64,000 nt of DNA from Corynebacterium confusum (GTDB taxonomy: Bacteria > Actinomycetota > Actinomycetes > Mycobacteriales > Mycobacteriaceae): positions 1,576,294 through 1,640,293 of the forward strand of contig NZ_CP047202.1 in NCBI RefSeq assembly GCF_030408715.1, in the 5' to 3' direction. Below the pieces are notes generated by a model, which had not been told where the DNA came from, searched no databases, and was given only the letters and a program-made list of their open reading frames with translations. Below, one piece after another: positions 53,760 through 58,332 of the stretch. Every line of letters starts with the position of its first letter. Position 1 is the first letter of the stretch. A program made the translations under genes and the position numbers.

Positions 53760-54644
53760 TTAGGGTTCGGAGCGCTCCCTCGCCGCCGCGGCAAACTTCG
53801 GATCCACCTCGTCCGCGGACTCCTGCCCGCGCGGCAGACGGAAGAACACGATGCAGGCCGCCACGAAGACCACCACGGAAACCAGCACGTTGACGCGCAC
53901 GTCGAAAATCAGCGTGGCCTCGTCCGTGCGCATCTGCTCGATGAAGAAGCGGCCGTAGGTATAGCCCATGACGTAGAGGACGAAGACCCGCCCGTGCCCC
54001 AGCTTCCAGGCGCGATGCGCCCAAAGCAGGAACAGGCACACGGCGACGTTCCACAGCAGCTCGTAGAGGAAGGTCGGGTGGACCGAGGCGATGACCTCAC
54101 CCGTGGAGGTGCCGCTGACCGGCGCTACCCGGCCGGCCTCGTCGACGCGGTAGTAAATGTCCAGGGCCCACGGGAGGTCAGTTTCCGCCCCGTAGAGCTC
54201 CTGGTTGAACCAGTTGCCCAGGCGTCCGATGCCCTGGGCCAGCACCAGCCCCGGCGCCACCGCGTCCGCAAAAGGCCCCAGCGGGATGCCCTTGACCTTG
54301 AACATCACCCACAGCGCCACCGTCGCGAGCGCCACCGCGCCCCAGATCCCCAGGCCGCCGTTGGTGATCTTCAGCGCATCGACCGGGTTGCACTCGGCAC
54401 AAAAGTACTTGTCGTAGTCCGTGATGACGTGGTAGAGGCGCCCGCCGATGATGCCGGCGGGGATGACCACGATGGCGGCGTCCCAGACGGTGTCCGGGTT
54501 CCCGCCCATCGCGCGGTAACGGCGCAGGGTCATCCACATGGCCACCAGGATGCCGGCGACGATGCACAGCGCGTAGGCGCGGATAGGAATCGGGCCCACG
54601 TGCCACACGCCCTGCGGCGGGGACGGGATATTGGCCAAGTTCAT
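53760..54644 (-). CDS. lgt: Prolipoprotein diacylglyceryl transferase
   Basis: Lgt attaches diacylglycerol to the lipobox cysteine of prolipoproteins. From ATG 54644 the product is 294 aa, begins [18 protein letters not shown] and has about seven membrane segments. Conserved motifs include [34 protein letters not shown] and [12 protein letters not shown]. The upstream TTG at 54671 is an unlikely start. It lies between pyk and the TrpC-like gene, an order I recall from corynebacteria. Confidence 0.95.
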
Positions 54645-54690
54645 AATCTGCACGTACACAGTGTGCCCCAAAGCCCACCCGAATGCGAGA

Positions 54691-55521
54691 TCAGGGGGTC
54701 TTGCGCGACGGGCACGCCGGGTGCTTGCCGGCGGCCACCAGGCTGCGGGCCAGGGCGGTGGGCTCCTGGGCGGTCATCACCGACTCGCCCACCAACACGG
54801 CATCGGCGCCCTGCGAGGCATATCCAAGCAAGTTGCGGGGGTTTTCCACCCCGCCGACGGCGATCCGCAGCAGGGATTCGGGTAGGCCGGGCACGATCTC
54901 GGCAAAGGCCCCGCGGTCGATGGCGTCCGAGGACAGCGACCACGCGTTGATGCCCACCACGGTCCCGCCGGCCTGCATGGCCCGGTCCGCGTCCTGGCTG
55001 CTGCGGATTTCCAGCAGAGCGACCATGCCGAGCGACTCGATCCGGTCCAGCAGGGCCTCCAGGCGCGCCTGTTGCAAGAGGGCGACCTGCAGCGGCACGA
55101 CGTCCGCGCCGAAGCAGCGGGCCTCGTGGATCTGGTACGGGTCGACGATGATGTCCCGGCAGATCATCGGCACCTCGGTGGCCGCCCGGATGAGCCGCAT
55201 ATCGTCCAGCGAGCCGTGGAAGCGGCGCCGGTCGGTCTGGCAGGCCATCATCACCACGCCGGCTTCTTCGAAGTCCCGGGCCAGCCGCGCCATCCGCTCC
55301 GGGTTGTCTAGGCGCGCGATTTCGCCCAGGTACGGCACCGCCCGTTTGAATTCGGTGATCACGGAACAGCCGTTGCTCAGAAGCGCCGCCTTGGCGTCCC
55401 GGGGCGGTTCCATCGAGCGGGATTTCGCCTTGATGTCTTGAAAAGAGACCTTCGCTTCGCGCGCGGCTACGTCTTCGAGGACGCCGGTGACTAAACGGTC
55501 AACGGCAATAGGGGTGGGCAC
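54691..55521 (-). CDS. TrpC-like (indole-3-glycerol phosphate synthase fold), probably catalytically impaired
   Basis: The 276-aa protein aligns along its length with mycobacterial TrpC, including the C-terminus [10 protein letters not shown]57, K59 and E171 of the IGPS active site and N192 are kept. However, the essential catalytic lysine (K110 in Sulfolobus IGPS) is R122 (ICRDII), R182 is W194 (GINAWSL), and S211 is G223 (RIAVGGV). The phosphate-binding SPS of KRxSPS is VPY. It is therefore probably not a standard IGPS. GTG start with GAGGAGG upstream. It lies between the Trp-region membrane gene and lgt, so it is the native orthologue position. Confidence 0.85.
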
Positions 55522-55631
55522 CGGGGCACCTCCTCGAAGTAAGCGACAAGGATCACATGCGCAGTCTCACCTAAGGCTATCCCTTCAAGCGTGCCCAGCG
55601 GAAATCCAGAGGTACCCCCGATAGGCAAACT

Positions 55632-56279
55632 TTAGGTTAAACGCCCACGTTGGTTGTCTAAATCGGTGGGGTCAATGTCGGCGTCCAACGCGTCCCATAG
55701 CACCCGGCCGCTGTCCGGGGACTTCTGCAGATCCTGGGCCAGCTTCTCCTGCCGCATGGCGGGGGTTTCGTATTTGTTGGAGCGGGCGGTGTCCTCGCCC
55801 GGGCGGGTGGCCAACAGCACCGCGCCGAAAAGCGCGACGGCCGCGGAGACAAGCGCTAGGACGGGCCCGGCGGTGTGCGCCGAGGCTTCCGTGATGACGG
55901 CCCAGTCCGAAATGGAGGTCACGTCCACCGAGAGATCGTTGTTCTGGCCGGCCTGCAAAATATCTTGGGCGCGCTGGACGTCCGGGCCGGCGGTCAGCAG
56001 CTGTAGTGGCCGCCAGGCCACCGCGGCCGCCGCCACCGCGCAGACGATGGCCACCACCCGGCGGGACAGCCGCCGCAACACCAGCCCGGCCAGCGTGCCG
56101 GCCAGCAGCAACAGCATGACGGCCATGAGCTCGACCGACCAGTGCGAGCCCAGGATGTCCACGACCTGCCCGCCGGACTTGTCGTCCTCAGCGGAGGCCT
56201 GGACCCAATTCATGCGCGACGAGCCCCACAGCCCAATCGCGCCGAGGGCCATGAGCAGCGGGCCAATTCGCTTTCCCAC
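55632..56279 (-). CDS. Trp-region conserved membrane protein (TIGR02234-like)
   Basis: The 215-aa product starts VGKRIGPLLMALGAIGLWG and has four membrane helices (about 6-22, 47-67, 72-92 and 128-150). A conserved WVQASAEDDKSG loop lies between helices one and two, and the tail is hydrophilic. It matches the actinobacterial family found between the anthranilate/IGPS genes (TIGR02234). GTG 56279 has AGGAAGGGAG just upstream. Its function is unknown. In actinobacteria it normally accompanies trpE/trpC, which fits the neighbouring TrpC-like gene. Confidence 0.85.
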   Translation of the reverse strand: MGKRIGPLLMALGAIGLWGSSRMNWVQASAEDDKSGGQVVDILGSHWSVELMAVMLLLLAGTLAGLVLRRLSRRVVAIVCAVAAAAVAWRPLQLLTAGPDVQRAQDILQAGQNNDLSVDVTSISDWAVITEASAHTAGPVLALVSAAVALFGAVLLATRPGEDTARSNKYETPAMRQEKLAQDLQKSPDSGRVLWDALDADIDPTDLDNQRGRLT

Positions 56280-56311
56280 GTCTACTCCCTTCCTGCGGTT
56301 ATTCAGGGATC

Positions 56312-57475
56312 CTAGAGTAGTACATCGGCGTCGAAGCAACTGCGATCGCCGGTGTGGCAGGCCCCGCCTTTTTGCCGGACGGTCACCAGGAGGGTGTCGC
56401 CGTCGCAGTCGAGCTTGACGCCTAAAACCTCCTGGGTATGGCCGGAGGTCTTACCCTTGACCCAGTATTCCTGTCGCGATCGGGAGAAATACGTGCCCTG
56501 GCGGGTGGCCAGGGTGAAAGCCAGCGCGTGGTCGTCCATCCAGGCCAGCATCAACACCTCGCCGTCTTCCGACTGCACGACGGCCGGCACCAGCCCGTCC
56601 GCATTGCGCTTCAGGCGGCCGGCAATCGCCGGGTCCAGTTCGCACTGCGCCGGGTTGGCCAGGGCAGGCTTTGGCTCCGCTTCCGCCACCAGCTCCGGCA
56701 CCGGCCGGATCGGATAACCGGCGTGAGACAGGGCGTCTTTAACCTCGCCGATCGTGGTCTTGGCGAAGTGGAAGATGGAGGCGGCCAAGACCGCGTCCGC
56801 GCCCGCGGCGACCGCCGGCGGGAAGTCTTCCGGCGCGCCCGCCCCGCCCGAGGCAATGACCGGCACGTTCACGGCGGCGCGCACGGCGGCGATGAGCTCG
56901 GTATCGAAACCGCCTTCAGTGCCGTCGCTGTCCATGGAGTTAAGCAGGATCTCGCCTACGCCCAAGTCGGCGGCAGTCCGGGCCCACTCCAGGGCGTCGA
57001 GGCCGGCGGAGCGGGTGCCGCCGTGCGTGGTGACCTCGAAGCCCGACGGGGCCCAGTCCTCCCGCTGCGCGGTCCGGCGCGCGTCCAGCGAGAGCACGAT
57101 GCACTGGGAGCCGAAGATCTCCGCCAGCTCCCGCAGCAGCTCGGGCCGGGCGATGGCCGCGGTGTTGACGGAGACCTTGTCCGCGCCGGCGCGCAGGAGG
57201 GCGCGCACGTCGTCGGCGCTACGTACTCCGCCGCCCACGGTCAGCGGGATAAAAACCTGCTCGGCCGTGCGACGCACGACGTCGATGAGCGTGCCGCGGC
57301 CCTCCTTCGAGGCGCTAACGTCTAGGAAGGTAAGCTCGTCGGCGCCGAGCTGGTCGTAGCGGGCGGCCAGCTCCACCGGGTCGCCGGCGTCGCGAAGGTT
57401 TGCAAAGTTGATGCCCTTGACCACGCGGCCGTTATCGACGTCGAGGCAGGGAATGACCCGCACGGACAAGCTCAC
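56312..57475 (-). CDS. hisF: HisF-HisI fusion: imidazole-glycerol-phosphate synthase cyclase + phosphoribosyl-AMP cyclohydrolase
   Basis: One 387-aa frame joins two histidine enzymes. Residues 1-256 are HisF ([14 protein letters not shown] with D12, and SLDARRT with D131). A 20-residue Pro/Ala/Glu linker (about 257-277) follows. Residues 278-387 are HisI ([30 protein letters not shown], zinc ligands C357, C373 and C380). HisI catalyses step 3 and HisF, with HisH, a later ring-closing step. The GTG start at 57475 follows AAGGAG. In C. glutamicum hisF and hisI are separate as I recall. An internal GTG near residue 259 could still make free HisI. Confidence 0.93.
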
Positions 57476-57540
57476 GGGGAGCACACTCCTTTTTTTAAAA
57501 AATCTGGGCCAGCACAGGAACTGGCCGGATAACTGCTGTT

Positions 57541-58332
57541 TTAGTTGTCGGCCCTGTTTGCGCGGATGGAATCCAGGATGGTCGCGTGCACCTGCGGGGT
57601 GCCGACCACCATGCCGGCCGAGTGCACGGACCACTCCTTTCCGTAAGGATCGGTAACCAGGCCCCCGGCGGAGCGCACGAAGAGCGCCCCCGCGGCGTTG
57701 TCCCAGGCGTGCGGGGAGAAATTCACCGCGCCGTCGAAGACTCCCTGGGCCACGAAGGCGCTGTCCAGCCCCACGGATCCGGTAATTCGCGGGCGCAGGC
57801 CCTTGCGCTTGAGATCGTTGAAGATGGGCGTCTGCAGGTGCGAGGAGCAGCCGACGTGGCCACGGGCCTCGTCGAAGCCCAACGCGTCCTCCCCGCCGCC
57901 GAAGCCGCTCGGCGGTCCCCCGGCCGAGCGCAGCGGCGCGCCGTCAGCTGCCGCCAGCCGGCGCCCCAAAAGCGGGAAATCCGCCACGGCCACAACGGGC
58001 TGGTGATCCTGGACGAGCGCCACCAGGGTGCCGCACAGCGGGCTGCCGGCCGAGTAGTTGGCGGTGCCGTCGATGGGGTCGACCACCCAGACGGTTTCGG
58101 CCAGCTTGCCGCCGGATTCTTCCCCGTAGACCGGGATGCCGGTGAGCTGGGTCAGGCGCCGGCGCAGGTTGGTCTCGATGGCGATGTCGACCTCGGTGGC
58201 GAAATCGCCCTGGCCCTTGAACTGGGCGGGCTTCGCGCCCAGCCCGGTGCGGAAACGGTCGGTGGTCTCATCCACGATGGCCTCGGCGAAGGCCAGCAAT
58301 TCCAGCGGCGATGTCATGGCGTGCTCACTCAT
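57541..58332 (-). CDS. impA: Inositol monophosphatase-family protein in his cluster
   Basis: The 263-aa product has the phosphatase motifs [28 protein letters not shown] and [16 protein letters not shown]. This family removes phosphate from inositol-1-phosphate or, in actinobacteria, from histidinol phosphate or other sugar phosphates. C. glutamicum has impA at the same place between hisA and hisF; the real histidinol-phosphatase there is hisN elsewhere. An ATG at 58317 (MTSPLELL) is an alternative start. The gene belongs to the his transcript. Confidence 0.9.

Follow-up and report, generated by a model that had tools for sequence, protein, structure and literature searches.

A displaced TrpC with an altered active site is retained at the ancestral his-trp locus in one clade of Corynebacterium

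What becomes of an enzyme after its reaction passes to another gene is the question raised by an altered trpC gene of Corynebacterium confusum, which sits at the ancestral his-trp locus of this organism. The gene lies in the 64,000-nucleotide stretch of DNA analyzed here (the window), and its features are collected in Table 1. The locus is a natural experiment: it provides 145 sequences of a single clade, for which the intact sister enzyme of other Corynebacterium loci serves as a control, and in these sequences a well-understood active site is lost by degrees from a protein that is retained. A preliminary description had suggested that the gene could be the old TrpC, freed for another role.

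Table 1. Altered trpC, its active-site positions, and its neighbors in the window
Feature	Position in window	Strand	Remarks
Altered TrpC, IGPS-fold pseudoenzyme candidate	54691..55521	(-)	276 aa, GTG start
Upstream gap with Shine-Dalgarno sequence	55522..55631	(-)	110 bases
R122	55156..55158	(-)	Aligned with catalytic K110 (Sulfolobus) / K119 (Mtb)
V222	54856..54858	(-)	Aligned with E210 (Sulfolobus) / E219 (Mtb)
W194	54940..54942	(-)	Aligned with R182
G223	54853..54855	(-)	Aligned with S211
V62-P63-Y64	55330..55338	(-)	Replaces the SPS loop in the alignment
E57, retained (= E51)	55351..55353	(-)	Kept in 129/145 altered loci
K59, retained (= K53)	55345..55347	(-)	Kept in 123/145 altered loci
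E171, retained (= E159)	55009..55011	(-)	Kept in 134/145 altered loci
N192, retained (= N180)	54946..54948	(-)	Kept in 122/145 altered loci
C52, new clade-specific Cys	55366..55368	(-)	Just before strand beta1
Trp_oprn_chp membrane protein (PF09534)	55632..56339	(-)	Other survivor of the ancestral trp cluster
lgt	53760..54671	(-)	Downstream neighbor of altered trpC

The window protein is a member of the homologous IGPS family, as the Pfam IGPS profile PF00218 matches it at full length, over residues 8–260, above the curated cut-off (1.4e-49; 169 bits vs. 27). The functional equivalog score is not reached: the NCBIfam TrpC model NF001369 gave 288.9 bits against a cut-off of 329, and none of the 15 NCBIfam models listed as matches exceeded its own cut-off. 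The end-to-end alignment with mycobacterial TrpC described earlier was recovered with M. tuberculosis (Mtb) TrpC over residues 5–272. The C-terminus, described as nearly identical, does share the GxHPxCP tail with Mtb, but the likeness at length falls short of near identity. A clear Shine-Dalgarno sequence, GAGGAGGTG, lies just 5' of the GTG start, and the GC3 of the gene, 0.88, falls within that of eight neighboring genes (0.82–0.92), in agreement with the strong Shine-Dalgarno sequence and normal codon use noted before.

The Sulfolobus numbering used here (K110, R182, S211, etc.) is taken over from the preliminary description and presumed to be correct. All the replacements named there were present in the alignment, with K110 found as R122, R182 as W194, S211 as G223, and SPS as VPY, and two that it did not mention were added, E210 to V222 and L131 to P143. 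Thus, compared with the M. tuberculosis-type TrpC/IGPS (PF00218, EC 4.1.1.48), the window protein lacks the general acid lysine K110 and the glutamate that positions it, E210, as well as the substrate-binding SPS, R182, and S211; in addition, trpE, trpB, and trpA are gone from the locus. E51, K53, E159, and N180 are retained as E57, K59, E171, and N192, as had been stated. When the five acid/base residues mutated in Mtb IGPS (E57, K59, K119, E168, and E219; PMC10591298) are taken as the reference, two of five are lost and three are kept, so the claim that most catalytic residues had been lost was overstated, although the binding positions SPS, R182, and S211 have also changed.

In the same study, no activity was detected with alanine at any of these five positions of Mtb IGPS, the kcat of K119R was more than 2700-fold lower, and E219Q was more active than the wild type (PMC10591298). 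The catalytic triad is given there as E57, E219, and K119, and two of its three members, K119 and E219, are R122 and V222 in the window protein. In P. aeruginosa IGPS, R196 of loop 6 contacts the carboxylate and phosphate of a substrate analog (PMC7681013); we infer that this residue occupies the R182 position, which is W194 here. From the Mtb mutant effects and the loss of the R182 equivalent, the window protein should not be a useful IGPS, and IGPS activity has very likely been lost in the altered TrpC.

The preliminary description had proposed a search for a second trpC or trpCF, and a profile search of the same genome (99.94% complete) returned a single further PF00218 match, at C1:2450773-2451510. 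This match belongs to an open frame with IGPS and PRAI domains, a TrpCF fusion, and its IGPS domain is canonical at all ten positions checked. The window TrpC and TrpCF are approximately 27% identical over the best segment. Downstream of trpCF lies trpA, at C1:2453451, and by our reading a trpD-like ORF lies directly upstream. A horizontal origin has been proposed for the second trp operon; Noda-Garcia and co-workers reportedly suggested that corynebacteria gained a whole trp operon. Solved structures of bifunctional TrpCF, 7etx and 7ety, carry a source name beginning with "Cor".

To place the window gene within the genus, 242 Corynebacterium genomes were searched, and 241 gave a match. Of the 242 genomes, 190 were read in detail, at one locus each, and one trpCF fragment (L191) was dropped, giving 189 loci. 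Fully canonical TrpC was found at 44 of these; sorted by the other nine positions, the loci split completely at E210, which is kept in 44/44 canonical and 0/145 altered loci, and the pattern of the window is therefore not due to chance. The genes trpB and trpA were each present at the locus in all 44 canonical and in none of the 145 altered loci, 30 of which had short flanks of approximately 1.5 kb. In the canonical order, trpB-trpA lie between trpC and lgt. Beyond the genus, the 20 loci sampled in 18 further genera of the same family were canonical at all these positions, and lgt lies approximately 3 kb downstream of trpC in 19 of the 20, a spacing that, judged by distance alone, is that seen with trpB-trpA in between. 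A genus-wide change was thus rejected, as 44/189 Corynebacterium and 20/20 other-genus loci are canonical, and the alteration is not common to all corynebacteria.

The 145 altered loci form one side of a single branch in a tree of lgt, hisF/I, and pyk (support 0.998). Since the hisF/I set perhaps mixed hisI and hisF rows, the clade test was repeated with lgt and pyk alone (0.994), and the clade was also recovered in the TrpC gene tree (1.0). After re-rooting, the printed support of the clade is 0.858; read as a bipartition, it is 0.998 and 0.994 in the two concatenated trees. On the most parsimonious view, a single change took place at the root of one section of the genus, in which the old trpE-trpB-trpA were lost and the second operon came into use. 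That the window gene is the displaced ancestral TrpC of Corynebacterium is near certain; the earlier view of an old, freed TrpC is well supported in this respect by the second canonical IGPS, the absence of trpB-trpA from exactly the altered loci, the single clade, and the low omega values given below. The source names of the altered proteins are still IGPS or TrpC, and tryptophan-pathway predictions made from this locus would therefore be wrong.

Within the clade, the active site is lost to different degrees. The K110 position is Arg in 119 altered loci, Lys in nine, and another residue in 17, K110 and E210 are both missing from 136/145, and an intact SPS is left in one (L164). W194 together with G223 occurs in 69 altered loci, the window included. 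On a single origin of R182W and S211G the trees differ: the largest clade of such loci holds 38 of the 69 in one tree, 68 together with 17 others in the lgt and pyk tree, and all 69 together with three others in the gene tree. In a group of ten, the C. callunae/C. glutamicum group, Ala or Gly replaces E57, Asp replaces both K59 and N192, Thr replaces R182, and Gly replaces S211, with E171 kept in 4/10; C. gallinarum (L090) belongs to this group. C. glutamicum itself, with a 261-aa cg2293 product, is presumably a member as well, as this length suggests. A further lineage of four has Gln, Gln, Gln, Val, Pro, and Ala at E51, K53, E159, N180, R182, and S211. For the strongly degraded C. gallinarum form, a complete barrel was predicted (pLDDT 93.3), with Mtb TrpC as the closest structure; the 25-sequence alignment behind the model contained canonical and less degraded relatives, and a barrel was therefore to be expected. 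Required residues are thus lost and the fold, as predicted, is kept, which is what a pseudoenzyme would display.

It is very improbable that the protein has kept weak IGPS activity or serves as a back-up to TrpCF. In favor of this, E51, K53, E159, and N180 are all kept together in 117/145 altered loci and nine loci still have K110. However, E210 is missing from 145/145, and the Mtb study attributes severe effects to K119R and E219A (PMC10591298). In C. glutamicum, where cg2293 is taken as the counterpart of the window gene, 46 Trp auxotrophs are listed from a transposon screen, all carrying insertions within cg3359-cg3364, of which ten hit trpCF; the bracketed insertion numbers in the table sum to 43 (PMC1590026). 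There, cg2293 did not rescue the trpCF-insertion auxotrophs, although an insertion in trpCF takes away TrpF as well and could have polar effects. Moreover, in G106, a genome in a single contig that is 99% complete, no match to trpA, PRAI (trpF), or a second IGPS/trpCF was found, and yet an altered TrpC of 70% identity is present; retention there is therefore independent of tryptophan synthesis.

The protein might instead be an enzyme whose reaction has changed, with the E57-K59-E171-N192 remnant acting on another substrate that is probably non-phosphorylated or not an anthranilate, and we regard this as rather unlikely. E57, K59, and E171 are kept together in 123/145 altered loci, while positions 62 and 64 are nearly the most variable of the protein (conservation ranks 246 and 258 of 276 among 129 altered loci). 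Furthermore, new residues prevail at former active-site or neighboring strand positions, namely R122 (119/145), P143 (120/145), A93 (117/145), and Q95 (107/145). In contrast, E57 and K59 are gone from the C. callunae/C. glutamicum group and from further lines that nevertheless keep the gene, E171 too is lost in most lines without E57 and K59 (kept in 6/17), and the biosynthetic neighbors of the gene are limited to his genes, lgt, and pyk.

All 145 altered loci have full-length open frames, defined as at least 234 of the 276 window columns aligned; the shortest is 238 aa, and 143/145 are at least 260 aa. Because the frames were cut at stops, the absence of internal stops is empty and full length is the evidence. 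A pseudogene was rejected for the altered clade on these grounds, in support of the earlier statement that the gene is not decaying. In the MG codon model of IQ-TREE, omega was 0.048 for canonical TrpC, 0.052 and 0.056 for two altered groups of 14 sequences, and 0.079 in the group of ten; the TrpC trees were saturated, with lengths of 10–53, so the absolute values are rough. The neighbors gave 0.035–0.086 (lgt) and 0.057–0.094 (Trp_oprn_chp membrane protein), and hisF/I gave 0.050, 0.021, and 0.032. The dN/dS comparison suggested at the outset thus returned low values, 0.05–0.08, near those of lgt and the membrane-protein gene, and together with the full-length frames these values, under the same saturation, indicate purifying selection rather than decay. 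In contrast, altered TrpC is looser than hisF/I (0.056 vs. 0.021 and 0.079 vs. 0.032), which counts against the explanation that we favor below. The pairwise medians (dS 0.15–1.5) were 0.198 for canonical TrpC, 0.247 and 0.337 for altered TrpC, and 0.24–0.30 for lgt; small-group pairwise values were 0.124 (7 pairs) and 0.049 (5 pairs). Loss of conservation was not preferential at the active site (8/11 vs. 79/111 other formerly invariant positions, p=1, 129 altered loci), and thus the loosening extends across the protein and is not confined to the active site.

These data bear on slow decay, by which an unneeded gene would be held by its position between expressed genes while drifting to loss. 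In two genomes (G191 and G192), the altered trpC is cleanly deleted and the membrane-protein gene abuts lgt; the count of losses leaves out G123, where the stretch is masked, and the incomplete assemblies G047 and G168. In an evolved, fast-growing C. glutamicum, cg2293 (a 261-aa putative IGPS) is frameshifted, and its product is judged "most likely not functional" (PMC6691914). The altered TrpC is therefore dispensable at least in that strain and in the two deletion genomes. Very diverged copies in G141 (26% identity) and G028 (32%), the higher omega of the C. callunae/C. glutamicum group relative to canonical TrpC (0.079 vs. 0.048), and the general loosening of formerly invariant sites would also agree with decay. 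However, decay appears improbable to us given the full-length frames at all altered loci, an omega near that of lgt and the membrane protein, and a cysteine, C52, fixed across the clade in 144/145. In addition, the two deletion genomes keep lgt beside the membrane-protein gene, so lgt seems not to need trpC. The G028 genome is of 1.9 Mb, with an altered TrpC of 241 aa and no hisA match.

The residues that unite the altered proteins lie outside the active site. All 145 altered loci and 20/20 other-genus loci keep R21, R160, H267, and P268, as do 42–44 of the 44 canonical Corynebacterium loci; among 18 TrpC from elsewhere, R21 occurs in four, R160 in none listed, and H267-P268 are mostly gaps. 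Position 52 is Val in 44/44 canonical Corynebacterium and Cys in 144/145 altered loci, and C270 is present in 138/145 altered loci and variable in canonical ones (20/44). By the barrel model, C52 (before strand 1) and the tail (after helix 8) should lie opposite the active site. C52 may form, with C270, H267, and D240, a new metal or disulfide site at the bottom of the barrel, and, judged by sequence conservation, the conserved non-catalytic residues may make up a partner-binding surface.

Collectively, these observations make it likely that the altered TrpC is retained for some other role; of the earlier reading, displacement is well supported, non-decay is supported for this clade, and the other role is a deduction. 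We consider it probable that the protein is a displaced TrpC that persists as a pseudoenzyme under purifying selection in a non-catalytic role, in partner binding or as a structural site. A non-catalytic binding role is favored because all altered lineages share length, locus, and non-catalytic residues. The same non-catalytic residues occur in canonical TrpC, both in Corynebacterium and in the other sampled genera, which raises a bolder reading that we offer with considerable doubt: a clade-wide pseudo-IGPS family whose function lies on the non-catalytic side of the TIM barrel and predates the loss of catalysis. TrpC of this family may thus always have done a second job unrelated to tryptophan, now exposed by the replacement of its reaction; if the non-catalytic residues do serve a separate function, the relatives' TrpC may be moonlighting. 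Searches of the literature, with most subscription papers outside their reach, returned no partner, ligand, or phenotype for the cg2293 locus besides the evolved-strain frameshift, and nothing devoted to this gene on TrpC pseudoenzymes or paralogs and the coryneform trp operon transfer.

For a displaced pseudoenzyme of this kind, the following history can be proposed. The vertically inherited TrpC would have been displaced as the lineage came to rely on the second trp operon with TrpCF. Once it was freed from indole-glycerol-phosphate synthesis, E210 would have gone by the base of the clade, with K110 and the SPS loop lost too in most lines, while the full-length barrel was retained under purifying selection. 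Through R21, R160, H267-P268, C270, and the new C52, the protein would contact a partner protein or form a structural site. The E57/K59/E171/N192 pocket would, in most lineages, still bind a small ligand lacking the phosphate and carboxylate of CdRP, and the C. callunae/C. glutamicum group, with most of the pocket gone, would represent the minimal needs of the retained function.

A parallel is provided by SubHisA of Corynebacterium, a PriA that lost its TrpF activity (Noda-Garcia 2013, as cited in PMC4462073), which shares genus, presumed trigger, and gene cluster with the altered TrpC. However, SubHisA keeps its histidine step, whereas the altered TrpC has lost its only known reaction. The hisA of the window carries Thr at PriA position 81 (VELTGGIR), the SubHisA signature. 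The link is not strict, as Ser is found in 6/51 altered named loci with a readable motif (7/58 were unreadable), namely L038, L039, L042, L045, L047, and L051 (C. tuberculostearicum and others), possibly through reversal. Similarly, in catalytically dead paralogs such as the T. brucei prozyme and dead deoxyhypusine synthase, the fold is kept and catalysis is lost, as in the altered TrpC. Such paralogs regulate an active partner; here, in contrast, the active enzyme is a distant replacement at approximately 27% identity, and a dimer with it is not obvious.

Several further features of the locus were observed. In the upstream gap, a TAGCCTNA...TGTGATC-like element precedes the Shine-Dalgarno sequence and recurs in part of the relatives; TGTGAT was found in this gap in 35/67 loci of the W194/G223 group, 4/71 other altered loci, and 0/32 canonical loci, and the element is possibly a promoter of the altered gene's own. 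The Trp_oprn_chp gene lies between trpE and trpC in a canonical locus (L130) and is kept beside lgt in G191 and G192 despite the trpC deletion; its function may likewise not be tied to the trp operon. Retention of trpE in altered loci was rejected, as the six tblastn matches are to a different chorismate-binding gene, which lies past pyk on the opposite strand and is 37–41% identical. Long gaps in L228, L232, L238, and L239 were also rejected as trpBA, since by our reading a lipoprotein-like gene has been inserted there and separates the altered trpC from lgt. In the window, hisF and hisI share one 440-aa frame (56312-57634, (-); His_biosynth and PRA-CH), an arrangement seen in 10/177 genus loci with both genes visible. 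Finally, a 925-aa frame at L116:5988-8762 (-) combines HisF, HisI, and TrpE domains and looks like a histidine-tryptophan triple fusion, and a similarly long open stretch lies at about the same place in L117, L119, and L120.
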